Source of the DNA: Balamuthia mandrillaris
Taxonomy: Eukaryota > Discosea > Longamoebia > Balamuthiidae
DNA length: 64,000 bases
Assembly (NCBI GenBank): GCA_031835245.1
Contig: JAVKOQ010000072.1
Coordinates: 20,001-84,000, forward strand
Reading direction: 5' to 3'
The notes under the pieces were generated by a model that made no database searches, was not told the origin of the DNA, and worked only from the letters and a program-made list of their open reading frames with translations. A program made the translations under genes and the position numbers. Within the stretch, counting starts at the first letter, position 1. The number at the start of each line of letters is the position of its first letter. Positions 5,675 through 53,314 of this stretch are shown piece by piece.

Positions 5675-6877
5675 CTACATAGAAACCACTTGAGGAGCTT
5701 CATCATCCGGTTCAACAATCGTAAAGTCATGATGAAACCGCTTCGTCAGGAACCGTCTGAACTTTCTGCACCGTTGGACCAGCCTCTCCTCCGCCTCTCC
5801 CTCCTCCAACACGGCAGCAAAGAACGAGCCCAGCGAGGGGGCCAAAAAGTTATCCTGCAGCAACTCATCCTGAAAGAAATCCACCGGCATGCGCTTCAAC
5901 TGGTGATGCAGCACCACCACGAACTCGAGGAAGAGCCCCGGCAGCTCCCTCAACGCCTCCTGACAGTTGCACAGCATCTCCACCATCCTCTTCCATTGCA
6001 GAAAGCCATCCAAGCATTGACCCAACAGGAAACACAAGTAGGCAAACTGCAACTCTCCCAGCAGCAGCTTGTATGCGGCTTCTTCTTCTTGCTTTGCTTC
6101 GGTTCCTCCTTTCTTGCTGTACTGATGGAGAAGAAGGTGACGAAGGAGATAGCTTTTGTCGAGGCCGCTGCGAGTGATCACGGCCGGAGTTGCGTCTTTG
6201 GGAATGAAGCGTTTGGGAATGGGTGTGTAGAAGCAGTGATGCGATCGACCCTTCTCCTTCTTCCCTGCTTCTTCCTCTCCCTCCACAACCTCTTGGATCT
6301 TGGGTCCGCCGCTTCGTTGGAGCTCTTCCTCCTCCTCTTCGGCGGCTTGGGACCAAATCGTTCTGCCAACGGGTTGAAGACGGGCCACCACTTCCGGTGT
6401 GACATGATTGCAAAGGTGGAGCCATGCCACCGCGGTGGTGGTCTTGTTCCTCCTTGTACTTCCTTCTTCCTCTGTTTCGGGTTGTTGAAGCGGATAAGGC
6501 CCAAGATAAGCATCAAAGTCAAAGCGCCGCACTCCCTCCTTAAAGCGGAGCGCCTCCTCCTGGTCCTCCCATCGCTCCTCGGGCACCAGCTCCTCCTCCG
6601 CGGTGCTCCACCGAAAGACCTTCACCTCCCCTCGTCCTTGCTGCGGGGGAGGGAAGTGCACAAAAATGGACTTGCGAGGGCTGAACGCGCCGCCGTGCTT
6701 GAGGGCAGGGCTGTAGTAGAGCAGGTGCATGCCTGGGGGGACCATCTTGACGCCCTTGAACTTGGGGCCGACTTGCCAGGAGTGGAGGTCGATGCCGAAC
6801 TCGGTGCCCTCCGGCACGTCCAAGCAGAGCACGGCCCCACCTCGCTGAGCCATATCGAAAGCGGTCGTCGCCTCCAT
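5675..6877 (-). CDS. AAR2: AAR2 family pre-mRNA splicing factor
   Basis: AAR2 binds Prp8 in the cytoplasm during U5 snRNP assembly and is later exchanged for Brr2. A single exon of 400 residues, close to the usual ~355-385. N-terminal CLDVPEGTEFGIDLHSWQVG and PKFKGVKMVPPGMHLLYYS are the hallmark AAR2 sequences. Further on come FLGPYP-like YLGPYPLQQ, then LGELQFAYLCFLLGQCLDGF, the conserved C-terminal helical core. An acidic linker (about residues 180-210) is longer than in animals. The ATG at 6875-6877 was chosen because homology starts about 10 residues after it; the upstream in-frame stretch is Lys/Arg-rich 5' UTR. Divergent from the next gene, sharing a 519-nt promoter region. Confidence 0.93.
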   Translation of the reverse strand: MEATTAFDMAQRGGAVLCLDVPEGTEFGIDLHSWQVGPKFKGVKMVPPGMHLLYYSPALKHGGAFSPRKSIFVHFPPPQQGRGEVKVFRWSTAEEELVPEERWEDQEEALRFKEGVRRFDFDAYLGPYPLQQPETEEEGSTRRNKTTTAVAWLHLCNHVTPEVVARLQPVGRTIWSQAAEEEEEELQRSGGPKIQEVVEGEEEAGKKEKGRSHHCFYTPIPKRFIPKDATPAVITRSGLDKSYLLRHLLLHQYSKKGGTEAKQEEEAAYKLLLGELQFAYLCFLLGQCLDGFLQWKRMVEMLCNCQEALRELPGLFLEFVVVLHHQLKRMPVDFFQDELLQDNFLAPSLGSFFAAVLEEGEAEERLVQRCRKFRRFLTKRFHHDFTIVEPDDEAPQVVSM

Positions 6878-7396
6878 CGCTTCTCTTCTCTTTTCTTTTC
6901 TTTCTTTTCTTTTCTTTCTTCGTGGGTTGGTTTTTCGGCTTTGAGCACACGAAAAAGACGCGAAACTTCCCAGCCTTGTCGACAACCTCATGTCGACAAG
7001 AATACGAGCAATTTTCAGATATTGTGTCGACAAGAATGCAAGCCATGCAAGGAATGGCATGCCTTCGGAAAGATGGAAACTTGCTGTGGAGAAGAAAGGA
7101 GAACGACGGGGAAAGTGCTGGCTGGCTGCTGTATCTGGTGGAAAAGCGTTGGAAAAAAATGTGGAGCGGCTTGTGGCATACCTTATTTCCTCCTAGGCTG
7201 CTTTTTTTTTTCCTTTGCTTCTGTTGGACTCTCTGAGATTTTTCTGTTGGATTGACAGCCAACCGCACAGCCACAAAAAAAACAACAGGAGCGCAAGCTA
7301 CCCACTCCTTCTTCTTGTTTTTTTTTTCACTTTCAGAAACAAACGTTCGAAACAGCAACACGTATCGTATAAACATATTTTTCTACGACCGCCACC
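6878..7396 (+). promoter_or_regulatory. Divergent promoter with three TGTCGACA palindromes
   Basis: Spacer between AAR2 (-) and the NTF2-like gene (+). It carries TTGTCGACAA at 6976-6985, TGTCGACA at 6991-6998 and TGTCGACA at 7025-7032. The last two share the 13-mer TGTCGACAAGAAT. The cluster lies 100-155 nt before the AAR2 start codon. No coding potential seen. Confidence 0.5.
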
Positions 7397-27337: not shown

Positions 27338-27408
27338 TGCATCCGCCGGGAGTTGAACCCGGGCCTCCCGCGTGGCAGGCGGAAATCATGCCCCTAGACT
27401 ACGGATGC
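27338..27408 (-). tRNA. tRNA-Gly (GCC anticodon)
   Basis: 71 nt on the minus strand. The acceptor stem pairs GCATCCG with CGGATGC. The T arm carries GGTTCAACTCC (B box). The anticodon stem TCCGC/GCGGG encloses the loop CTGCCAC, anticodon GCC. No intron. It sits between the nibrin promoter and the 3' end of the triple-SH3 gene. Internal A and B boxes are intact, so it is probably functional. Confidence 0.95.
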
Positions 27409-27783: not shown

Positions 27784-30045
27784 TCAAGCAGCTTCCTCCA
27801 AAAACTTTTGCTCAAACATCTGCAACAACGTGGTCGTCTTCCTTTGTTGCATCAACATCAGCACGCTCATTCTCTTCATCTGCCACTCATCCCTCTTGTT
27901 CTCATCCTGAGTGGGCTTCAATGACTTTGGCAACGGCGGAAGTCTGTTACCTCCACTATGAACAAACCCTCTTCCTCTACCTCCTCTTCCTGCTGTTGGT
28001 TGGCCTCTTCCTCTTCCTGATTGACCTCTGCCTTGTCCTTGTTCTCTTCCTCGTTGATTTGACGTAACGCGGTTGTTTGGGGATTGTTGCACATTTTTGC
28101 CGTTTCTTATTTCTTCTTCTTCTTTTACGTGTGTTTCTCCACCACCACCTCCTTCGTTTTCCTGTTCTTGTTGTGATGGTAACTTGGGTAAAGGCTTATT
28201 CGGAATGGTAACTGTCCGTCCTCGTACCTTTATCGTCTGAGGGTTGCTGACGTCTGTACTTGCTGACGAAGAAGAAGGAGATAGGGAAGAAGCGGATGAT
28301 GCCAGAACTTGTTGCTCGGCAGAGTTGTTGTTGCTAGCGTTGAGCAATTTGGGTTTAGTGGCATTATCAGGTCGCGGAGGCGGATTGCTTCTACCAGGAG
28401 ATGGCAACCTCGTTGTAGCCGTTAGTGTCCCATTGTTCCTTTTCATTTCTTCTTTTTGTGCCGTGTATCTTTGTCCCTTTCTGCGTTGTTGTTCGGTCGA
28501 TGTATCTTCCGTGTCGGGACGAAGAGGTACCTCGTTTGGGTTTCCTTGAAGAACTTTGACAAAGTTCTTTGGAAAGATGCCCATCGTTGCACATTTTGTT
28601 TTGGAACTTCCTCCCTGCTCTTCTTCATCCACTTGAGCCCACCACCACGTTTCGTCTTCTCTTTGTACGACCCTAAAGATATCTCCTTTATGGAATCCAA
28701 ACTCATCTTCTTCCAATGCTTCAAAGTCTGCAATTGCTTCCACTCTAACAAAACACTTTTGGTCCCCTTCGTTATGTTTCGTTCGCTGTTGTTGTTGCGT
28801 CATTTGCTTTATCATTTCTTCATGAGAACGACGCCGTATGTTATTGTGGTCTCCAAGGACGCCACCGCTCATATTCGGATAGAGCAATGGTAACGCTTCA
28901 GGGTTTCCTACAATGACTTTAACAAAGTTCTTTGGAAAGATGCCTGTCTTTCGAACGCTGTTCTTGTTGCTGGTGTTGTTGGATAGAAGAAGACCGAACC
29001 ACCACCGATCATCCACTCGCTTTTGGACTTGTAAGACGTCTCCGTTGTTGAAAGCGAGCTCGTCAGCTTCCATCGCTTCGAAATTGGCTATTGCTTCTGC
29101 TTTCACTATCCCCGCTTCCTTTTCTTTCACCTTCTCTTTCTCCTTTTCTCTTTGCTTTCTTTTTTCTTCTTCTTCCTTTTCTTTCCGCTTCCTTTGCTCT
29201 TCTTCTGCTTCCCTTTCTCTCTTCTTCCGCTCCTCTTCCTCCTGCTCTCTCCGTCGCTTCTCCTCCTCTTCCTCTTCTTTCCTCTTCCGCTGTTCCTCTT
29301 CTTCCCTCTCTGTTCTCTTTCTCTCTTCCTCCTCTTTCTCCAAAGCTTGTTGTTGCGTTCGTAGCGGCAACAGCTCGACATTGCCTTCCAGCACCCTCAC
29401 AAAGCTTCTCGGAAAGATGCCCGTGTAGCCTTCATCATCCAACCCCCACCACCACTCCTCGTCCTCCCTCTCCACCACTACAAAAACGGCTCCTTTGGAG
29501 AACTCAAACTCGTCCTCCTCCTCCGCCGCAAAGTCCGTTGTGGCTTCCACTTTGACCACTTGTTGTGGCAGGAGGTCCTCCTCTTCCTTGTATTTGTCTG
29601 GCGTTGAAGAAGAAGAAGAAGAAAGAGAAGGAGAAGGAGAAGAAGAGGTGAGTGAAAGTTGTTGGCGTTGAAGTTCGGCCAAGACCTGATCGGCAGGAAG
29701 AGCCCAACGAAGGCTGTAGCGCTTGCGCTCTTCCCAAGTGGAGCCGTTGTCCGGCGGAGGAGGTCGACTAAAAGTGGTATCAGCGGAAGAAAGGACAGCA
29801 GAAGGCAACGTATCGAAAGGCTTTGTCAACGCATCGATCGGAGAAGATGAAGAAGAAGCGATTTCCTTGGTTTTGTTTTGGATGAGTTGTTCCATTTCAT
29901 GCTGAAAGGAGGCCACGCGTTGCTTGATATCTTCCCGAATGGCATGGACCTCTTGCTCGAGTTTGTTGGCGCAGGCGTCGAGCCTCTGCTGAAGGGCGGC
30001 CCCGGTCGGCTCCAACCCTGGCGGCAAGCCGCTTTCTTCTTCCAT
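27784..30045 (-). CDS. Triple-SH3 adaptor protein with RG-rich region
   Basis: Single exon, 753 residues. An N-terminal helical segment (~20-65) is followed by a Ser-rich linker. SH3-1 (~165-225): VKVEATTDFAAEEEDEFEF, EEWWWGLDDEGYTGIFPRSFV. SH3-2 (~315-385): VKAEAIANFEAMEADELAF, DRWWFG...GIFPKNFVKV. SH3-3 (~430-505): VRVEAIADFEALEEDEFGF, TWWWAQ...GIFPKNFVKVL. SH3-1 and SH3-2 are separated by a ~85-residue Glu/Lys/Arg coiled coil. After SH3-3 come Pro-rich segments (PPPRPD, PLPKLP) that could be ligands for SH3 domains in cis or trans, and an RG/RGG-rich stretch (~680-705; GRGRGQ, GRGGRGRGF) of the RNA-binding or methylated type. Probably an actin- or endocytosis-linked scaffold; the order of domains matches no named protein I know. 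Confidence 0.85.
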   Translation of the reverse strand: MEEESGLPPGLEPTGAALQQRLDACANKLEQEVHAIREDIKQRVASFQHEMEQLIQNKTKEIASSSSSPIDALTKPFDTLPSAVLSSADTTFSRPPPPDNGSTWEERKRYSLRWALPADQVLAELQRQQLSLTSSSPSPSLSSSSSSTPDKYKEEEDLLPQQVVKVEATTDFAAEEEDEFEFSKGAVFVVVEREDEEWWWGLDDEGYTGIFPRSFVRVLEGNVELLPLRTQQQALEKEEEERKRTEREEEEQRKRKEEEEEEKRRREQEEEERKKREREAEEEQRKRKEKEEEEKRKQREKEKEKVKEKEAGIVKAEAIANFEAMEADELAFNNGDVLQVQKRVDDRWWFGLLLSNNTSNKNSVRKTGIFPKNFVKVIVGNPEALPLLYPNMSGGVLGDHNNIRRRSHEEMIKQMTQQQQRTKHNEGDQKCFVRVEAIADFEALEEDEFGFHKGDIFRVVQREDETWWWAQVDEEEQGGSSKTKCATMGIFPKNFVKVLQGNPNEVPLRPDTEDTSTEQQRRKGQRYTAQKEEMKRNNGTLTATTRLPSPGRSNPPPRPDNATKPKLLNASNNNSAEQQVLASSASSLSPSSSSASTDVSNPQTIKVRGRTVTIPNKPLPKLPSQQEQENEGGGGGETHVKEEEEIRNGKNVQQSPNNRVTSNQRGREQGQGRGQSGRGRGQPTAGRGGRGRGFVHSGGNRLPPLPKSLKPTQDENKRDEWQMKRMSVLMLMQQRKTTTLLQMFEQKFLEEAA

Positions 30046-33396: not shown

Positions 33397-33945
33397 TTAC
33401 TGTAAAGAAGGAGGCAGTTGCTCTCTTTGCTTCTCCGTCAACAAACTCGTCCACCTCTTCACTCTCTTCCAACTCTCATCTTCCTTTTTCTCCGCAGCCG
33501 AAACAGCGTAAGAAAGATCCAACAACGATTCCGCGGCGGCCACTTGAGCCTCCAACGAGAAGCCATACTTCTTTCTCATCTCCTCTGAAAGTACCATCCC
33601 CATCCTTCCTCGCAGCCACTCTAACCCTGGCACTTGTTTCATCATCATCTCTCGCTTCTTCTGTTCGTCTTTAAGCGAAGAAGAAGAAAAGAGGACAGAT
33701 GTTTCCATCATTCGAAGAACCGTTCGTCCCAACACTCCAATTAGGCGCAATGCTGTTACGATGGAGGAAGAGGAGGAAGAAACCGAAGGAGACGGACTGA
33801 GGAATTGAGGCCAAAGTTTGGTGACTATGAGGTCGTTGTAGGTCCATACCCATCCGCCGTACGCTCCCATCAATTCTCCACATTTCAACACTTGGTACAT
33901 TCCTAGTTTGTGTTTTGAAAAAATGAGACCAGTTAGAGAAAGGGA

Positions 33946-34007
<62 letters not shown>

Positions 34008-37000
34008 GGAAAGTTACCATTAGGATCATGACACTCTCGAATGCTGGTCATGAGACTTTGATCTAGCAACGTATTCAACGGGACCGGCAAAGAACAATGC
34101 GAAGAAGTTTCAGAAGAAGAAAAGGAAGGATGCCACCGACAAATCTCGCACAACTCCAAAAAGTCATTCTGCAACGTTCTTTTTGCTCCTTCGCCTTCTC
34201 CTTCCTCCTTTGTCATCGTCTCTTGTTCTTTCTCCTCCGTTGTTGCTGTATCCACTTCTGTCGTCAACAAAGATTGGATCCATTTATCCACCATTCTTTC
34301 TTCCCTTTTCTTTTCATCATTGCGAAGAAGAAGAGAAGGCCAAATTCTCGTCATATCAAGCAAGAAAGGAATCTCATTTCTTGTTCCTCCGTTACCTCCT
34401 TTCTCACAACTGACAACTTTCTCCTTTTCGTTTGCGTTGTTGTTGGCGGCAGCAGCTTGAACGATGAGAGCTTTGAAGAGCATATCAAAGCAGAGAACTC
34501 GTGCTCGTTGCAAGTCATTGCAAAGTCTCGCCAAAGCAGCGAAGCAGCGACAGAGGCTTGCTCGTTCCCAACGTGCCAGTTCAAAGTCGTTTTGGAGTTT
34601 CTTTCGTTTAGGGGTTGTCATAGGTGTTGCTGGGTTTGAGCGAAGAAGGAAGAGTAAACGATAGTAGGTGTCGTGATGAAGAATGGCAAAAGCAAAATGT
34701 TGCATCAACTTCTCCCAAAAAGAACGATTGCCTTCTTCTTTCTTCAACTCTGCGATTTTCCAAATGAGACAAACCAAAAGTTCTTCTTTTGGGCCGATCT
34801 TTCTTCGTTTCTTTTCGTCAGCGGCTTCGTTCTTCTTCCGTTTCTTCTTTGCATCGTTGATGGAAGCCGTTCGTTGTGCTCGTTGTTTCTTCCATTCTTT
34901 GACCGCTCTTTCACGAATGACTGTCACAAGAACAGGTACCAATCGCATCTCGTTGATGTTGTTTTCATGACTTAACTCTTCTGCCACCGCGTCAAATGTG
35001 GTTTTGTTCAGCCGTTTTAGCAGTTGTTTGATCGCCAAATCGCCAGAAGAAGAGGTTGTGCTGACTTTCTTTGTCTTTTTAGCAGGAGAAGGAGTAGATC
35101 GAATTGATTGAGGTTCTGTTGTTGCTTCTGTTCTGTTGTCGGGTTTTTCTTGGTCGGATCTCTTTCGTTTTTTCGAGGTAGACGCAAGTTGCTCCTCTGG
35201 GTGATTTGTTGCAGATAGAGAAGGAGGGGAACAAGAGAGGGTGGAAGGTTTTGTTGTTGTCTGTTGCGATCTGATCCCAGCAGCAAGAGTTTTTTGGGCT
35301 TTTACTGTTTTTCGTTTCAGGCTTTTCAGTTTAGATGAAGCAGCTGCTTTCTTGGTCTTAGTGGCTTTCGTTGATGTTTTAGTTGTATCTTTTTTCTCTT
35401 CGGTTTTCTTTTGAGATGCTGGCTCTTGTTGTTCAACAGGGAGTGTAGAAGAGACAAGGGCAGAAGTAGAAGATGAAGTACCAGAACAAGTCAACAGAGA
35501 TGAAGGGGTGGAAAGAGCAGATGATGATGAAGCAATGGGAGGAGAAAAGGAAGAAGAAACAGAGGGCAATACTTTTGAGGAAGAAGGAGATGGAAGAGGA
35601 GGAGAAGAAGCTGGTATGATTGATGAAGATAAAGAAGAAGGCGGTGGAGATCCAATTCCAGAGAGAAGCTCATCGATGCGGGAATAAGCAGTGTTGGTGG
35701 AGGGAGCAGATGAAGATTGAAAAAGTGAAGAAGTGGTTGAAGGATGAGGGGGTTGTATCCGGTGTTCCCGTGCAACAATTGGGGAGGTACTTCCGTTCTG
35801 TTCAATGTCTTCATAGGAGAATAGCTTCCGTCCATCTCCTTCGGTTGTTGTTCTCGTTCTTTTTTCTTGCGTCTTGACTGCTTTTTCTGTTTGTTTCTCT
35901 TTCTTTTTTTCTTCTGTTCGATTCTTTTCTTTTCTTTTTTCTCCCGTTTCTGATTGCTGCTTTTTGTTGTTTGAAAGGCTTTGAATGCTCTGCTCTATTT
36001 GCATCTCTGCATCTTGTGGCAGCAAGTCTTTTGGCATTACTGCTTCTCTCTCTTCGGGCTCTACCATCAACATTCTTCTCAACAGCTCTTCTGAGCGTCG
36101 CACCATTTCTTCTTCTTTTTTGTCTCGTTCTCGTTCTCGTTCTCGTTCTCGTTCTCGTTCTCGTTCTCGTTCTCGTTCTCGTTCTCGTTCTCGTTCTCGT
36201 TCTCGTTCTCGTTCTCGTTCTCGTTCTCGTTGCTGTTTTTCTCTTTCTGCTCGTTCTTCTTGTTCTCTTTCTTGTTCTCTTTGCGTTTGTTGTTCAACTT
36301 CAGGGGTTACCTTTTCTTCTTGTATTGTTTGTAGTTCTTCTGTGTCTTGTTCCACATCTTCTTCCATGTCTCCAAAAAGATTCTCTTCCATTTCTCGATC
36401 TCTTCTTTCTTCTTCTGCTGCTTCTTCCGCTTTTCTTTTCTGTTCTTCTTCTTGTTCTTCTTGTCTGTCTTTTGTCTTCCGATCTTCATCAACCTTTTGC
36501 ATAAATGTTGTATCTTCTCGGTTCTTGTCTCCCTCTATTTTCTTTGCTTCTTCATCTTCTTCGTCTGCTTCCTTTTCCTCTCCTTTCATTTCCTTCTCAA
36601 GTTCTTTTTCTAGTTCTTTCTCCAATTCACTCTGCATTTCCTGTTCTTCCTTCTGTTCGACTGCTTTACGCTCCAAAGTTTCTGCTTTGATATTTTCTGC
36701 TTGTGCTTCTTCAAATCTCTGCTCCTTGTCGTTCTCTTTCTCTTTTTTATGCTCGTCCGCTTCTGTTTTGAACAAATTCCATTCTGCGTCAACCAACCGC
36801 TGAATGAGTTGATCTTTTTTTCCCCAATGCCTCAACTCGAGTCGTTTCAGCATTTGTCCAAGTTCTTTCGTTGTCGTCTTCTGCAATTCAGCCGTTCTTT
36901 TCTGTTTCCATTCCTTTTCTTTGTCTTCTGTTGCTGTTTCATCCTTTTCTTCTGCTTCTTCTTGTTTTTGTGGTTGTCGATCCATCACAAAAACTTCATC

Positions 37001-38663
37001 CCGTTCTTCCAAATCAGGAACAATTTCACTCGCTTCTGTCTCGTTTTCTTTTTCTTTCTCTTTTTCAGCATCACCATCTCTAACAACGAAAGATTGTTGC
37101 GGAGTAGAAGCTTCCTTTGTTTCGCTTCTTCTATGTCTATGTTTTGCTGTTGGTTGTTCTTCGTTTCTCACTTTATCTTCCTGAAGTTGTTGCGGTAAAG
37201 ATGATGAAGGGATTATATTGGTTGGTTTATCGGCTACAACTGCAGCGGCAGCATAGGGCGCGTAGCTCAAAGTTGGTAACAGGGACTGCCATGACGAAGG
37301 AGTGGAGGCAGCGTTTCTCTTACCGTTCAATAAGGTTTTGGCAAGCTGTTTGTTATTTTGGAGCGCTAAGTTGGTTTTCTCTTTTTGTTGTGTTTGCTGT
37401 TGTGACGGTGGTTGTTGTTGGAGCTCTTCTCCAGCGGAACTTTCATCTGAGGCTCTATCTTCGCTTTCCATTCCTTCTAGTTCAATCATCAACTCTCTTT
37501 CCATCTCGTGACTTTCTGTGTCTTCCATTGCCTTCTCTCCTCTTTCTCGTTCTCCTGGTGTTGCTCTTGCTGCTTCTTCTTCTTCTTCACTTCCAACGTC
37601 CATCGATGTCGCCCCGGTGCTTTTTTTCTTCATCTCTTCTTCCATCTGTCTTTCAGCGGTTGTTCTCGTTTCTCCTTTTGTGCTCACTCGGAGCATCCTC
37701 TTTCCTCTCCCTCTCTTCCCCTTTCCATTGTTGCTTTCCTCTTCCACATCTTCTTTATCTTGTCCCTCCTCAATCATCGTCGTCGTCATCGCCTCTATAT
37801 CTTCCGGTACAGCCACTCCAGCCATCTCCATTTCTACCAACAGCCGCTCCACCTTAATATTCAACCGCTCATTCACTCGCTGCATATTCCTCAGCTTGCT
37901 GCAGAGGTGTACGTTCTCCCGGTTGAGCATGTGGAGGTCATGATCCTTGGCGCTGCTCTCCTTCTTCAACTTGTTGATCTCCCTGCGAAAGCCCCTCTCC
38001 ATCTCCTTCCAGTCGTGTGCGAGCGCAATGTCCGCCTCCAGCTGCCTATTGTATGCTTTGAGGGCGTTGAGTTGGCTTTCGGATTTTTGGAGGTCTGCCG
38101 TGAGGCGCTCGACCTGGCCCTCTCGTTGGGTGAGGCTCTGCCGCATGGGGATGACCTCGCGCAGCAGCTGGTCCATTTGGAGGCGCAGCGTGGAGGTGAC
38201 GCGTTGATCGGTTTCCATTTGGGCCAACTTTTCTTCCACTGTTTGTTTTGGATCATAACATAGGTCAGTCTATTGGCAAAACAACGAAAGGAGGGAGAGA
38301 GAGAGAGAGGGAGAGAGAGGGAGAGAGAGAGAGAGAGGAAAGAGAAACGGGGGAGAGAGAGAGAGAGAAGCGAAAATGCAAAGTCAGAAACAAAGAAGCA
38401 GCAAACGTACGGTCATGCACGGTTTGACGGAGCTCATGCTCGGTTTGAGAGGCCTGTTGGAGCTTCTGTTGGGAGGCCGTGTAGAGAGAGACGATGGTGG
38501 AGGTGTCGATGATTTTCTCTTTGAGCTTCAGCAGGTTGCTGCGCATGAGTTGGTTTTGACGCTGCAGCTCCTCTCCCTTCGGATCCGCTGGAGAGTGGGA
38601 CGAAGAAGAAGCAGAACAAGAAGAAGAAGAAGAGCCATGGTGAAGCGGAATCGGATCCTCCAT
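33397..38663 (-). CDS. Giant coiled-coil protein with SAP-like motif
   Basis: Exons 38411-38663, 34018-38238 and 33397-33902, 1659 residues. The N-terminal ~230 residues form a coiled coil (LRQTVHD/LEEKLAQMETDQR onwards). Then very acidic/Ser/Gln low-complexity follows, with a SAP-like motif (TTTKELGQMLKRLELRHWGK then KDQLIQRLVDAEW), which in other proteins binds A/T-rich DNA. Next is a (Arg-Glu)18 run encoded by a perfect hexanucleotide repeat. A Ser/Pro/Lys-rich region with nuclear-localisation-like basic patches leads to a C-terminal helical region from about residue 1190 (AIKQLLKRLNKTTFDAVAEE, then FAFAILHHDTYYRLLFLLRS, RWERASLCRCFAALARL) that looks like a helical-repeat domain, weakly MIF4G-like. 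Probably nuclear; no family assigned. Some other large nuclear proteins pair an N-terminal coiled coil with a C-terminal helical domain. Confidence 0.75.
33948..34006 (-). repeat. (GA)n microsatellite in intron
   Basis: About 58 nt of GA on the plus strand (CT on the transcript strand), in intron 33903-34017 of the coiled-coil/SAP gene. Confidence 0.9.
36123..36231 (-). repeat. (TCTCGT)18 coding hexanucleotide repeat
   Basis: About 18 perfect tandem copies of TCTCGT on the plus strand, read as CGA-GAA codons on the minus strand to give an (Arg-Glu)n run in the coiled-coil/SAP protein. The perfect copies suggest recent slippage expansion. Confidence 0.95.
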
Positions 38664-42880: not shown

Positions 42881-44254
42881 TCAAGCATAAAACTCTTCAA
42901 GCTCCTTGGGCACATCGTCCAGGTCTACAATGCGATGCGTGAGCCGAAACGGCTCTCTTCTCATCTGCTCCAACATTCCTTGCTCCAGCTGAGCCACCGC
43001 ATCAGCTCTTTCATCCGTTTGTTTTCTTTCGCGGCAAGCGTCCACCAAGGAGGCCAACATGTCTTGATCCGGCTTCATGCCGTGCGCTCTCATGGTGGCC
43101 AACACTTGCATGCCCTCCTCCACCTTTCCCCAACGAGCACAGGCCCTGAAGACCCGCTGCAACGTCCCTCTTTGAGGCAAACGGCTGTTCTTTGGCTGCG
43201 CGGTCATCTCCTTGAGTGCTGCTAGCGTGTGCTCAAAGTCTCCGTGACTGCTGCAAACGCGAATGAAAGCATCGTAGATGGGGGTATCTAGTTCCAATCC
43301 CGCGTGTCTCATGGCATTCCAAACGCCTAAAGCTCGATCCAACAGAGGGTGAGCATCGCCTTCGTCTTCTTCTTGCGCTTCACAAGCAAGAAGTAACGTG
43401 CGGTAGGTCAGCGAGTCGGGCTCCACTGCCTCCTTCTTCATTCGCTCCAGCATTCCAAAGCTTCGATCCACCACCTCCTTTTGCTTCTTCGTTTTGTTGT
43501 TGAAGACGAGCTCTTGCAAAAGAATGTTGAAGGTGGCTACGTCTGGTTTTAATCCTCGTTGCTTGATCGTGTCAAAGACTTGTTCCTGACGAGCCAAGTC
43601 ACCGTTGGCAGCAGCCAACCTCATCAAGGTGTTGAAAGCCACAAGGTTGGGCTTCACTCCAGCTGCCTCCATTCGTTGCAGGGCCTGAAAGGCTTTGTCA
43701 ACGTCTTTGGCCTCCACGCAGCTATCCAACAGCACAGTGTAGGTCACGATGCCAGGCTTCACTCCTTCAGCTTGTAACAGGTCTAACACCCCGAATGCTT
43801 GGTCCAAGTATTGTTGCTCGCTTCGTTCTACTTCGTTCGTTTTGTTGCTGCTTGAAGAAGAAGAAGAAGAAGAAGAAGAAGAAGAAGAAGAACAAGAAGA
43901 ACAAGAACAAGAAGAACAAGAATCAGGGGAAGAAGATCTGCCACAAGCCCGAATGAGATGGAGAAAGGTGAGCATGTCGGGCTTGACGCCAAGTTCCTTG
44001 CGTTGGTGGTAGAGAGCGAACATGTCGGCGACTTGTCTCTTCTCAGCAAGGAGGCAAAGCTCTTCGTTCATTCGTTGTGTTTGCTTGCGAATCTGGAAAG
44101 GGTTCCGTTCCTCCATTTTCTTCACTCGTTTTGTCTTGAGGCCGGTCGTAGAAGGTGCAGAGGTAGCGGTGGAATAGAGAAAAGGAGTGGATTCATGAAA
44201 GTGAGGGCGAAACGAAGAGGTGAAGACGAGGAAACGATGAGGGTGCTTCCACAA
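42881..44254 (-). CDS. Pentatricopeptide repeat (PPR) protein, organellar
   Basis: RNA-binding helical-repeat protein, probably acting on mitochondrial transcripts. The frame from 44254 to 42881 has 457 codons and at least seven ~35-residue PPR units, for example GVKPGIVTYTVLLDSCVEAK, GVKPNLVAFNTLMRLAAANG, GLKPDVATFNILLQELVF and AVEPDSLTYRTLLLACEAQ. A poly-Ser insert (~105-130), encoded by TTC/TCT-type triplets, interrupts the first repeats. The first in-frame ATG is at 44114-44116 (MEERNPF, 411 residues), but the 46 residues before it (HPHRFLVFTSSFRPHFHEST) resemble a mitochondrial presequence with no ATG. A pyrimidine tract and ATAAG upstream suggest a small 5' exon that I could not place in frame. 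Confidence 0.85.
   Translation of the reverse strand: MWKHPHRFLVFTSSFRPHFHESTPFLYSTATSAPSTTGLKTKRVKKMEERNPFQIRKQTQRMNEELCLLAEKRQVADMFALYHQRKELGVKPDMLTFLHLIRACGRSSSPDSCSSCSCSSCSSSSSSSSSSSSSSSNKTNEVERSEQQYLDQAFGVLDLLQAEGVKPGIVTYTVLLDSCVEAKDVDKAFQALQRMEAAGVKPNLVAFNTLMRLAAANGDLARQEQVFDTIKQRGLKPDVATFNILLQELVFNNKTKKQKEVVDRSFGMLERMKKEAVEPDSLTYRTLLLACEAQEEDEGDAHPLLDRALGVWNAMRHAGLELDTPIYDAFIRVCSSHGDFEHTLAALKEMTAQPKNSRLPQRGTLQRVFRACARWGKVEEGMQVLATMRAHGMKPDQDMLASLVDACRERKQTDERADAVAQLEQGMLEQMRREPFRLTHRIVDLDDVPKELEEFYA
43853..43922 (-). repeat. GAA/AGA trinucleotide run coding poly-Ser
   Basis: (GAA)n-like tract on the plus strand, read as Ser codons in the PPR protein. A second (GAA)n tract at about 44275-44333 lies just upstream of the PPR reading frame and may be intronic. 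Confidence 0.85.
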
Positions 44255-47817: not shown

Positions 47818-50270
47818 TTAACAAGCAAAGTATTGGTAAATGGCAGTGCTGAGCTTTGGTCCGATCCTCTTGCGACGAACAACACCGTTGATAGCAGCAT
47901 CCTCAGCAACAACTGGCAAATCCGCCAATAACAATGCTTTCCGTTGTTCCAATGAAAGATTCTGTAGCTTTTTCTTTCTTCCTCTCTTCTTCTTTTCCTG
48001 CGTTCCATTTCCTTTTTCCATGCTCTGCTCTTCTTCTTTTGTTGTGTCTTCGATTTCTTTTTGCTTTTCTTCTCCCTCTTCTTGTTGTTGTTGTAGTCGT
48101 TCTTCTTCATCTCGGAGATACTCCATTTCGACCGCATTATAAGCAGCAACAAGAAAAAACGGCGTTGGGTACTGTCTCACGATGGCTTTCGCTTTGCTCT
48201 CTGAACATCTGTGAATCTGCATCAGTTGCTGCTTCCAAGTGTAACTGATGGAATCACTGCCTTTCTTCAGGCGTGAGTTGAACTCGTCAAAGAGCATCCA
48301 TCGAGTAGGCAGCTCTTCCTCCAGTTCGTACAGTGGAATAACAGCTGGAGATGAAGTGCTCTTTTTTCTCTTTTCTCCTCCTCTGTTGTTGTTGCAATTA
48401 CTCTTTCGCTTTCTGCCGTTGTAGTTGCTTCGCCCAGTATCTTCGTTATTTTTGTTGCTGTCTTCGCTGTTGCGGTTGTTCCTCGCTTCCTCTTCTGCTT
48501 CTGCTTCATCTTCCGTTTCTCCATTACTTTGAAGAAGTTGTGATGGTGGTTGAGAGAAACCACTTTCCAACTGGAATGTGTTGGAAAGAGAAGAAGAAGG
48601 AGGAGGAGAAGAACAAAATATGCCCCGACGCCGATAAAAATGGGTAATCTCCTCAGTCATTGTCTTGAGGTACCATACAGTGTCGTCCGTTGTGTTCGTG
48701 TGAACAAAAAATAAGTTTGGCCGATGGAAACGAAGACAATCGCAAACGCTTTCGAACAGCTCTTCAGTCAACAAGCAGTGATTCGCGTTGATGCCCTCAA
48801 CAAGGGTCACCACGTTCATTTTAGAGCGCAACAGTCGTTCTTGTTGCTCCGAGAAGCGACCACTCTCCATGGAAGAAGCCAAATCGGTGACTGATTTGCG
48901 TTCAATGATCCAATCTAGAACCAGTTCTTCTTTCTTCACTTCTTTCCATTCCTCAGTTCCTCCACTTCTTCTTTTTCTCAGTCTGCCTCTTCTTCGGTTG
49001 GTGGTTGCTGGTAGTTCTTGTGATTGAGTCTCATCGTTCCAAAGAGATGAAGAAGTTTCGCTTTCACTCAACAACGAATGGCTTGTTGTAACGGAAAAAG
49101 GCTTTTGGCTTTCTTGTCCTCTATCCCATTGTCGTTTACGTTCCATTTCGTAATATGAATCCTTTTCGCGCATAATCCAGAGAAAGTCGCCAGCCGCAAG
49201 AGCTCGTTCCTCGCAAGCAAGACCTGCTCTGTGCATGCATTGTAGGACTGGCAGTCGAACTTCGGTTGGCTCTCGAGTGTCCACCAACAACACCACTTCA
49301 AAGTCTTTGTTGATCTCTTCGCCGGAAATGACGCGGTTGAATACTCTGGAATAGGGTATGTTGTTGTTGTTGTTGTTGTTTGTAGGAAGAACATTTGTGC
49401 TGTAAGGTGTAGGAGAAGGTTCTGCCGGTTCTTCTTCGTCATTCCCTGCTTTTTCTTCTTCTTCCACTTCATGCGATTGGTTTAGGTTTTCTGTTTGTGC
49501 TGTTGGTAGGTAATCTTGTTGCTGTCTATCTACAACCGTTTGTTGGACTGCTTCTGTTGTTTGTTGTGATGGTTGTTGTTTGTGTTGCTCTAGTTCTTGA
49601 TGATTTTCTGGTAGTCTCTCTTCTTCTTCTATGGAGGAAGTCTCTTCTGTCTTGTACTCCGCTTGTGATACGGTCGTATCGTCATTCATTACCGTTAAAT
49701 TCGTTTCTTGGTTTGTGTTGTCTTCTATCACTTCATCAGATTGTTGGCCGAGTGTCGTTTCGGGTTCCGTCGCCATTGTCGAAAGTATTTCCTTGTTCGT
49801 CTGTTGCATATTTGTCTCTTGTTCTTCCAATTGCATTGGCGTAGTTGTTGCGCTTTGTTGTTGCAACTTAGAAGTAGAAATAGGAAGAAGAGAAAAGGGT
49901 TGAGTTGCTTCGACGTTTTCTTCTTGTGGAACGCTCCATTCAAATTCTGAAGCTTGGCTAGTTTCAAGAGATAGTCGCAAAGCCTCTCTCAGAGAAGCTT
50001 CTTCTTCATCCTCCTCTTGTTTTAACTTTAGCGCTTCTTGCTGTGATAGCTCCAACGCCTTTTGCAAAGCCAACTGATCGGTATCTATTTCCCCTTCTTC
50101 GGCCTTTATCGGTGCTGTTGTTTCGTTGTTGATTGTCCCAGAAGTTATTTCGCGCTCCTCTGGTTGTGAGGGTTGTCTTGACGGTGAACTAGTTTCGTAT
50201 TGAGAGCTCGACGTCGGGGTTAAACTAGTCAAGATGCGGAAAATGTGAGCCAAGAAACATCAGAGAGAAG

Positions 50271-50315
<45 letters not shown>

Positions 50316-53314
50316 AAAACAAGAATAAGAATAACTACCCAGTAGGAAGTGAATAGGCTCGTTGTAGAACATCTGGCTTTTTGCTTATAATTTCCGTGGA
50401 AACACTTTCTGTAGATCGAGACAACAAACTAGAGGATGTAGACGTGGATGGACTGTTCGTGCGGCTCTTCGGTGAATTCAAAGAAATATTTGATGACGAC
50501 GTTAACGTCGAAGATAGCGAAGTTGAAACTAAAGCAGTCGAAGAAGATGAATAAGATTGTGGTGATAATGATGGTGAGGGAGCAGTAGAAGCAGAAGTAG
50601 GAGAAGAGGCAGGAGGATGGAGAGAGGGATCCAAAGAGCAACCTTCTTGCCAAAGTTGCTCGGCAAGCGCTATGCCAGAAGGAGAAAGGCTGTATCGCTG
50701 GTCGGGAGACTTGATTACAAGCCCCTTTAGCACGAGAACTGTATCCATCGAAGTCCACGCTGTATACCACTTGCGAGAATCATGGCAGTGACCTTTTTCC
50801 TGCAAACAAAAAAAAAATACTTAAGAAATTTGAAATAACGAAAATGAGAGAAGAAAGAAAAAACAAACCCTTTCCCAAGGAGAATCCGTGAAAGGCCGGG
50901 CCAGATCTATAATCTCGTTCTTTGCCATGGAGTCGGGTTCGCTGAGTTGAAGCTGGTGACCCTTTTTCAAGATGAGAGCCTGATACATTGCCAGCATGAT
51001 AGCATAAGGACCGGACCGGTATCTTGGGATGTAGGGTCTTGGACTTCTGTTCTGTTTTCTTGTTGGTGGTGGAGGAGACGAAGCAGAAGAAGCAAGTGAA
51101 GACGACGAGGTAGATGAAGGAAAAGGAGGACCAGGAAGAACGGGTGCACCTAAAGCACCATTGATTCCAGAAGAAGGTGTAAGATATGAAGGAAGCGGAG
51201 AACCAGATGGAGACGAAGGTATAGTAGAAGCAGAAGTAGGAGGAGACGGCAAATTGGCAAGATCTTCGGGCTTCCATCCTGCCCGCCGCAACAAAGCCGG
51301 AGTAACGTTACTCAAAACGAGATGTCCGTACTGAGCTGCCAACGCGCGTGGAGCTTTCTTTGGGCCGTAGACACAGCTGAGGAAACCGCATACGATGTGT
51401 TTACACCACCCGCGGATTGCGTGGCGAAGGCCAGAGCCTGACTTGGCAAAAGCGGGACAGGTGCAGTGCGATGACTTGAGAAGTTGGTCTCGCCAAGCTA
51501 ATTGAACTGTGTATATCTGTTTGCCAGTTCCTGATTTTATAAAGAAAATACAGAACATTGAAAAATTGCGCTTTAAGTGAGAAAGAGCAGACAAACAGAG
51601 AAGAGTGAAAAAAAAAAGAGAAAACCACAAACCATATACAGTGACTGTGGTTTTATCAGGACCCTCCCATTTGTGCTGGATGGCACCAACGATGTAGTAC
51701 GCAAGGCCGCGATTGAGAGAATCCACGTCACAGTGCAAGTGCAAGTACTGAGGGAGCATCACCGGATTAGGAGAGTCCCCAGTTCCAATAGCCAAACCGC
51801 CAAATGAGGGCGATGCAGCTGCCGTGCCGAAAGCAGAAGCCGTTAAGCTCCCTAAATCTCCAACAAATGTTGGCGTCTCCAAGCAGCCTGTTGTTGGACA
51901 AGTACCAATCAAAACGTTAACATAGCAATGAACATTAGAGATGATAGGGCCAAAGAAGGAAGAAGGAAGAAGAGGTGAGCAGATTAACAAAAAAAAAATA
52001 CCTCTAATGGTTCTGGGTTGAAACTCAGACGTTTCTTCATCTGTGAAAATTAACGTGCGGGCAGCAGAAGTGGAAGCACGTTGATTTGTAGCACCAGTGG
52101 CGGCAATACTGGGAGAATGAGGATCTGCAGTCTCAGCGACACTTGTACTGCTAGTAGTCCTTCCCAAAGTTGGAGGACAAGAATGAAATTCTGTTTTTGG
52201 TTTGACTGTTTTCCAAGTAGTTACCGAAGAAGGAGGGGATCCTCTTCGAGGAGACTTGGGATCACCATTTCGTCGTGGAGGAGAAGCAAAAGCAGTTGAT
52301 TCCATTGACGAGGAAACAGGCGGTAAAGGAGAAATAGCAGCATAAGAAGAAACGGAAGGTAAAGCAGATGGTGATGAGGTAATCAACCGAGTTGGCGATG
52401 GTTGTGGTGGAGTTACAATGGCTGGTGTAAAGCCAGGAGAGAGTGGAGTACCGGCAGAAGGAGGCTCGGAAGAAGATAGAGCTCGAATGTGACGTAATAG
52501 AAGCTTTTGATGGCCGGGGAGAATTATACCAATACGTTCCAGGTCTGTCTCGCTTTCGATGCAACAAATGGCGTCTATTCGGTCATAACCCGACTTTATA
52601 AAGTTGGGAAGGTATTGAGGAAGGCCGATTGTCAATTGTAGCCATTGTTCCACACTTACTTGTGATATTAGTTGAGGTTGAATTTGAGTGGAAGGTGTTG
52701 GTTGAGACGAAGGTGAAGGAGGTGTGATGGAGGGAGAGGGCGTGAAGGAAGAAGAACGAGGAGGAGGAGTAGAGGCAGGTGGGGATGGAGCTCTTTCGTT
52801 GTGCATCGTTGGCGCTGCTTCCTCTTCTTCGTCTTCTTCGAGAGTGAGATCAAGTACCGAGGTGGCACGTTCTTGCTTGACCTGGGAAGCAAAAGGAGAA
52901 GTAGAAGTGGAAGTAGAAGAAGAAAAAGAAGGAGGAGGAGGCAATGATGGAGAAGGAGGTAGAGGAGAAGCAGTAGCAGAGGAAGGAGAGGAGTTAGCGG
53001 CAGCAAGTAACTGCAAAGCTGCTATTTCACGAAGCCCCAGCTCGATCTCGTCCTTGACAAACTTGCCCACGCCAGGCAGGAGCAGAGCCTCCTCCCCGCT
53101 ACTGATTGGCCAGTTGGCCGCTTCGATGACAGGAAGTACCTCGTAAGTAGCAAATAAAAATACAAACAACTATAAGGATGTTTCTATCAAAGACGAAAAC
53201 CAAAGAGATGGTTACCCGTTCCAAAGCTGCAACGGCACGAACGAGACCACGTGCACGATAGCCAACAACGCGTTCCTTAAGGAACAGAATGAGTGCTTTG
53301 TTCTCTTCGTTCAT
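47818..53314 (-). CDS. MUS81: MUS81 structure-specific endonuclease with inserted SAM and SWIM domains
   Basis: Catalytic subunit (with EME1) that cleaves branched DNA in recombination. Six exons: 53216-53314, 52002-53139, 51633-51887, 50869-51530, 50339-50799 and 47818-50224, in one frame, 1673 residues (human 551). Order: N-terminal HhH (~1-70; RAVAALER/VLPVIEAANW then LLLPGVGKFV); a SUMO-interaction-like SVLDLTLEEDEEEE (~126-141); SAM domain (~193-254; VSVEQWLQLTIGLPQYLPNF); SWIM zinc finger (C520, C522, C540, H542 in HCTCPAF...WCKH); winged helix (~660-775; RYRSGPYAIMLAMYQ, WTSMDTVLVLKGLV, YSLSPSGIALAEQL); two UIMs (~922-935 LALQKALELSQQE; ~946-962 SLREALRLSLETS); ERCC4 nuclease with VDTRE (~1186-1190), AGDF and IIERKSVTD (~1312-1319), fitting GDXnERKX3D; C-terminal HhH ending AIYQYFAC. 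Confidence 0.88.
50281..50311 (-). repeat. (GA)n microsatellite in MUS81 intron
   Basis: (GA)15-like tract on the plus strand within intron 50225-50338, CT on the transcript strand. Confidence 0.9.

Follow-up and report, generated by a model that had tools for sequence, protein, structure and literature searches.

Does the gene named mus81 in Balamuthia mandrillaris encode a usual structure-selective endonuclease, or a nuclease with recruitment modules built into the same polypeptide? The gene lies in the window C71:20001-84000, the whole stretch of 64,000 nucleotides analysed here, which belongs to a genome of 64.8 Mb in 775 contigs. GenBank already lists it as "Crossover junction endonuclease mus81, variant 2". 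The present analysis adds a description of its architecture, the presence of three MUS81 types in one genome, and a pair of UIMs resembling that of RAP80. We propose, with a probability of about 0.55, that the window gene encodes a duplicated, probably active MUS81 with SLX4-like reading of SUMO and ubiquitin in cis, to which a SAM and a SWIM module are added; its putative function is deduced from sequence.

The gene is composed of six exons (53314-53216, 53139-52002, 51887-51633, 51530-50869, 50799-50339, and 50224-47818) separated by GT-AG introns, and the exons join into the single frame that an earlier note on this DNA had described. The protein is predicted to contain, from its N-terminus, a helix-hairpin-helix (HhH), a SUMO-interacting motif (SIM)-like sequence, a SAM domain, a SWIM zinc finger, a winged helix, a tandem UIM, an ERCC4 nuclease, and a C-terminal HhH (Table 1). 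The three MUS81 types of the genome are a plainer one (type A), one with SAM and SWIM (type B), and one with SAM, SWIM, and UIMs (type C), the last comprising the window gene and a copy on contig C103.

Table 1. Features of the window MUS81-type gene and its protein, in window coordinates.
Feature	Residues	Position	Strand	Evidence
Whole MUS81-type gene, six exons	1673 aa	47818..53314	(-)	Gene model, Pfam, GenBank proteins, C103 copy
N-terminal HhH	4-72	53023..53305	(-)	HHH_8 as cut-out; aligned with paralogue; split by intron 1 (53215-53140)
SIM-like VLDLT, then acidic run	128-140	52819..52857	(-)	Motif search and shuffles
SAM domain	194-256	52471..52659	(-)	Pfam SAM_1 1.2e-9; Caskin/Eph SAM structures 2e-11
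SWIM zinc finger and preceding stretch	462-556	51355..51741	(-)	Profile with paralogue; split by intron 3 (51632-51531)
MUS81 winged helix	664-770	50644..51033	(-)	Pfam MUS81-like_WH 5.7e-8; split by intron 4 (50868-50800)
Tandem UIM, RAP80 spacing, cores at 925 and 950	920-965	49945..50082	(-)	RAP80_UIM cut-out, RAP80 chain, register
ERCC4 nuclease, VDTRE + GDFLW + ERKSVTD	1182-1395	48655..49296	(-)	Pfam 7.5e-15, MUS81 structures
C-terminal HhH region	1510-1671	47827..48312	(-)	Pfam EME1-MUS81_C 1e-12

MUS81 is the catalytic subunit of MUS81-EME1/EME2. Three features that identify it, an ERCC4 domain with GDF and ERKxxxD, a MUS81-type winged helix, and a C-terminal HhH, are present, and Pfam reports the three domains in a scan of the whole protein. 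Against the sequences of solved structures, the ERCC4 domain matches MUS81 at 9e-13, aligned to 2ziu, and its three nuclease motifs are intact. The window gene probably encodes an active MUS81-type structure-selective endonuclease. It shares with MUS81 the usual order of a (here putative) N-terminal HhH, winged helix, nuclease, and C-terminal HhH, but differs in the SAM and SWIM modules placed between the HhH and the winged helix, in the putative tandem UIM ahead of the nuclease, and in its length. The winged helix of human MUS81 binds DNA (PMC3834828).

The earlier note had named as an alternative that the segments carrying the SAM and SWIM modules and the nuclease are two separate genes read as one. 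We reject this alternative as highly improbable, although two GenBank records of type B lend it some colour by beginning late, P0003 within the SAM domain on C104 and P0004 in what we model as intron 3 on C158. The model of the window copy (P0001, 1529 residues) likewise begins only at residue 145, without the HhH and the SIM, and all three late starts count against the preferred reading. Intron 2 of the C158 gene is a long CT repeat (L012, 1723-2082), because of which the type B models may start after it. From residue 145, P0001 equals the modelled protein through its end, whereas P0002, the record of the C103 copy (1569 residues), begins at the first methionine of our model; the two run from the SAM domain or the HhH into the nuclease. 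In the unspliced window DNA, an uninterrupted 782-residue frame connects the HhH with the winged helix, exon 2 by itself encodes the SIM and the SAM domain together with half of the HhH, and intron 3 lies within the SWIM finger. The type B paralogue has the same domain order. A published annotation of B. mandrillaris genomes, from which the P0001-P0004 records may come, relied on Funannotate and RNA-seq reads (PMC10471605).

The window region 35361-55872 occurs again on C103 (L009/L010) in the opposite orientation, with long pieces matching at roughly 81-91% DNA identity. The two regions are either homeologues or very diverged haplotypes. Identity between the two gene copies is 93.9-98.5% in the individual exons and 85.9-95.5% in the introns. 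Length differences between them are multiples of three in 15 of 16 exonic cases and in one of nine intronic ones (Fisher p 7e-5), and therefore support the exon and intron set of the model as a whole. Introns 2 and 3 of the window gene have lengths that are multiples of three and are stop-free and in frame. Reading through them is nevertheless rejected, since the C103 copy differs by 1 and 3 bases in intron 2 and by 4 bases in intron 3, and P0001 has both introns spliced out. The gene model, the GenBank proteins, and the C103 comparison support one predicted polypeptide, MUS81 plus added modules, rather than two genes.

The SAM assignment, a prediction made by Pfam and structure matching, is solid. 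The domain scores 38.8 bits against the SAM_1 cut-off of 23, is also matched by SAM_2 (2.4e-9), and has its structural match in the SAM domain of Caskin-1. Similar SAM domains occur in at least 15 places in the genome, four of which are the MUS81 genes of types B and C.

The zinc ligands of the SWIM finger, CxC and CxH, are located at 51465-51394 in exon 4, and not within 51633-53314, where the earlier note had placed the finger. A profile built from the trimmed window and C158 proteins finds the SWIM-bearing protein P0020 at an E value of 3.2e-6 (database size 5.77e9). P0020, which we take to be bacterial as judged by look only, carries Pfam SWIM at 4e-7, and the alignment spans the stretch ahead of the ligands together with CxC..GWCKHIV. 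In single comparisons, the window protein matches P0020 at 5e-6 and the C158 protein at 9e-16, as opposed to 0.013 and 0.19 for the SWS1-like exons of the genome. P0020 being matched far better, the window SWIM is not of the SWS1 kind. The window protein shares with SWS1/ZSWIM7 the SWIM-type CxC..CxH finger. That it is a captured SWS1 is rejected on the same comparison, and because a separate SWS1-like gene, for which the earlier note had suggested a search, exists on C510 (L047, both zinc halves) and C480 (L046, first half). In the frames read, the best-scoring of the three ZSWIM7 matches in the genome, on C89, lacks SWIM ligands at the matching place.

SWIM matches number 64 across the genome. 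At least 14 of them start 2293-2322 bases from the first base of their contig, and several are equally far from a contig end, a pattern that would fit some element with a SWIM finger, perhaps a transposase, located next to chromosome ends. A match at C120:96676, considered as a further SWIM gene, lies in frames without SWIM ligands and is taken as chance.

The genome holds at least eight ERCC4 places. Type C is represented by the window and C103, type B by C104 and C158, and type A by C129 and C562; the place on C34 was judged by eye to be XPF, and another lies at C129:43254. The type B genes, like type C, are found on two contigs, and type A on two almost identical ones; the type A pieces on C129 and C562 are identical across 2586 and 691 bases. 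The type B protein (1395 residues) is ordered HhH-SAM-SWIM-WH-ERCC4-HhH (WH, winged helix), as is the window protein, and Pfam reports HHH_8 (6e-12), SAM_1 (4e-12), SWIM (0.012), the winged helix (1e-13), ERCC4 (8e-21), and EME1-MUS81_C (4.8e-7). Trimmed to their domains, the window and type B proteins are 35% identical. Intron 1 within the HhH and the winged-helix intron, both of phase 0, occupy the same aligned places in the two genes. Each gene also has a phase 1 intron just ahead of the SWIM finger, where the sequences are too loose for alignment. In type B, a separate 525-base exon, flanked by phase 1 at both ends, encodes the SAM domain, as would be expected after exon shuffling.

The same order in so deep a paralogue indicates that the SAM and SWIM modules are old and kept. 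The simplest account is that one SAM and SWIM insertion preceded the split of the two large types. In a 13-row tree, the window and type B proteins are sisters (90/91, slightly short of the starred level); support for all three Balamuthia types as a group is 61/74, and P0017 falls near them. Long branches lead to the window protein, type A, and P0019. The plainer MUS81 on C129 (867 residues) contains HHH_8, ERCC4, and EME1-MUS81_C; Pfam reports in it neither SAM nor SWIM, and its winged helix, which Pfam does not report, is seen by eye only. Human MUS81 has about 551 residues. The earlier note's figure of three times the usual size is thus correct relative to the human protein but not relative to the plainer one of its own genome.

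The SIM-like sequence VLDLT-LEEDEEEE has a core, VLDLT, that never arose when residues 76-190 were shuffled 20,000 times, the pattern having been chosen after reading. The UIM cores LQKALELS and LREALRLS are 25 residues apart, as are FALALKMS and LRKAIAES of RAP80, and the alignment of the two proteins is gapless between the cores. The stretch matches the RAP80 chain at 0.0067, followed by ataxin-3 at 0.01. When residues 771-1175 were shuffled 50,000 times, 56 shuffles had two relaxed cores, and none had two cores 25 residues apart; the relaxed pattern was fixed after the sequence had been seen, and a stricter one matches the first core only. A rigid helix links the UIMs of RAP80, which limits simultaneous binding of the two to K63-linked ubiquitin (PMC7692841). 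Because such spacing selects K63 chains in RAP80, we counted the 25-residue register in favour of K63 reading.

Several results weigh against an assignment of all these modules. The UIM cut-out matches RAP80_UIM at 1.2e-4 and UIM at 0.012, and the N-terminal HhH cut-out matches HHH_8 at 0.0084, all under the curated cut-offs; in the C103 copy the values are 0.16 for HHH_8 and 5.5 for UIM. The Pfam scan of the whole window protein reports neither of them even at E 10, and an NCBIfam scan gives weak matches only, none above cut-off. The SWIM finger alone reaches E 0.2 in Pfam (11.7 bits versus a cut-off of 19.6), and an AlphaFold2 model of the paralogue P0004 (four rows, mean pLDDT 35.8) is too poor for judging it. 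Neither the type B paralogue on C158 nor the plainer MUS81 on C129 has the UIM pair. The N-terminal HhH does, however, align with the HHH_8 domain of type B across an intron of equal place and phase. Of the modules claimed by the earlier note, SAM, the winged helix, the nuclease, and the C-terminal HhH are thus confirmed by Pfam; SWIM stands through its ligands and the profile, and the N-terminal HhH, SIM, and UIM are candidates from motifs and alignments. The Pfam scores of SWIM, HHH_8, and UIM fall short and the SIM and UIM patterns were set post hoc.

It is possible, if doubtful, that the modules are real but the SIM and UIM matches are due to chance or idle, the window gene being a paralogue that has specialised, with its SAM and SWIM modules used only for oligomerisation and DNA binding. 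SAM and SWIM are indeed common to both large types, whereas the SIM and UIM motifs, which are short, differ between them. The 25-residue register of the UIM cores speaks against such idleness, as do the retention of the pair in the C103 copy and its low ratio of nonsynonymous to synonymous substitutions (dN/dS 0.14, from few changes). The type B paralogue, moreover, has two other SIM-like motifs, and two such motifs appear in three of 20,000 shuffles.

Selection was compared by the Nei-Gojobori method, in which each module has few changes and the C71 and C103 copies were counted up to residue 1548. Between them, dN/dS is 0.15 for SAM, 0.15 for SWIM, 0.09 for the winged helix, 0.14 for UIM, 0.31 for the HhH, and 0.43 for ERCC4. 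Linkers range from 0.37 to 0.87, and residues 1500-1548, with four amino-acid and zero silent changes, yield no ratio. Between the C158 and C104 copies of type B, the values are 0.04 for SAM, 0.18 for SWIM, 0.07 for the winged helix, 0.20 for ERCC4, 0.23 for the C-terminal HhH, and 0.50 for the N-terminal HhH, with linkers at 0.25-0.55. SAM and SWIM look constrained in these comparisons. The figures depend on few changes, however, and the ERCC4 value of the window pair, which is not below several linkers, as well as the N-terminal HhH of type B, count on the opposite side.

The same ERCC4 ratio would suit a surplus copy that is decaying and has little function left, as would the branch of the window protein, the longest of the 13 (2.1), and the sole exonic exception to multiples of three, a 46-base extra stretch close to the C-terminus of the C103 copy (L009 2516-8013), which causes a frameshift and so deletes the C-terminal HhH. 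Such decay of the window gene is improbable, as its reading frame is uninterrupted and its nuclease motifs are intact, all other exonic length differences preserve the frame, and SAM, SWIM, the winged helix, and UIM have dN/dS of 0.09-0.15. A functional enzyme with added modules remains the preferred reading.

The window protein could have replaced other components, but the loss of the plainer MUS81, EME1, or SWS1 is rejected, as all three are present. The EME1 gene lies at C129:43254 (L008; 2ziv_B, 9.8e-9), and an SLX4 candidate is weak (E 0.003). As the genome retains these genes, the large enzyme is an addition and not a replacement. The proposal of the earlier note that partner functions were fused therefore stands in that MUS81, SAM, SWIM, SIM-like, and UIM sequences are predicted in one polypeptide, but separate genes still exist.

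MUS81 needs control because it cuts chromosomes. In the systems considered here, its targeting and activation proceed via partners, SLX4 in humans and the SIMs of Eme1 in fission yeast (PMC5344696 and PMC9032445). In the human SMX tri-nuclease, as the former describes it, the scaffold SLX4 (UBZ, SIM, SAP) activates MUS81-EME1 via the N-terminal HhH of MUS81 and couples ubiquitin and SUMO reading to it, the role that we propose for the added modules of the window protein. SLX4 acts in trans with UBZ and SIM, whereas the window protein has UIM and SIM-like motifs in cis; no sequence kinship is claimed. The fission yeast SIMs, which according to the latter matter when Rqh1 is absent, likewise build SUMO reading into the MUS81 complex, but on the non-catalytic partner, whereas the SIM-like motif studied here is on the catalytic subunit. 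RAP80 (UIMC1) resembles the window protein in its UIM spacing and the charged stretch between the cores, and it has a SIM where the window protein has a SIM-like motif. The RAP80 SIM is about 40 residues ahead of the UIMs (PMC7692841), versus about 790 for the motif of the window protein, and there is no other kinship.

As expected from its family, the window enzyme would pair with EME1 through its C-terminal HhH and cut branched replication or recombination DNA. SUMO, bound via the SIM, and K63-linked ubiquitin, bound via the tandem UIM, may hold it in place at damaged chromatin. The SAM domain could allow the enzyme to self-assemble or to dock onto further SAM proteins encoded in the genome, and the SWIM finger could provide a zinc-based contact to DNA or protein. 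The enzyme would thus recruit itself, unlike human MUS81, which is engaged through SLX4 at the N-terminal HhH. This full scheme, a self-recruiting MUS81 that reads SUMO and K63-ubiquitin, assembles by SAM, and carries a bacterial-type SWIM beside a plainer, partner-dependent MUS81, is put forward tentatively and is unlikely to hold in every part. If it is true, a natural MUS81 with readers in cis would allow a test of whether recognition of SUMO and ubiquitin suffices for targeting the enzyme, with the three types in one genome as internal controls.

Protein searches covered up to 8000 candidates each, drawn from proteins that share exact words with the query. Among 15 MUS81-like relatives outside Balamuthia (P0005-P0019), none has SAM, SWIM, or CxC..CxH, although orthologues from Acanthamoeba or other amoebae may be missed by such candidates; six were scanned with Pfam (none at E 1) and nine judged by their listed precomputed domains. 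The same domain order, which the earlier note had suggested seeking in related protists, was thus not found in these proteins, and as candidates were limited to exact-word sharers, its absence elsewhere is not established. One scan of viral contigs gave no such MUS81, and the titles and abstract starts of open-licence PMC articles report no MUS81 with a SAM and SWIM architecture.

The window also contains, on the reverse strand, a 1522-residue open frame without a Pfam match at E 0.01 (33674-38239), an overlapping stretch of which has a strong base skew (36001-38000). Further reverse-strand genes encode an AAR2 splicing factor (5678-7060), a protein with three SH3 domains (27787-30045), and a PPR protein (42884-44254), and Rfam identifies a tRNA gene at 27338-27408, likewise on the reverse strand.

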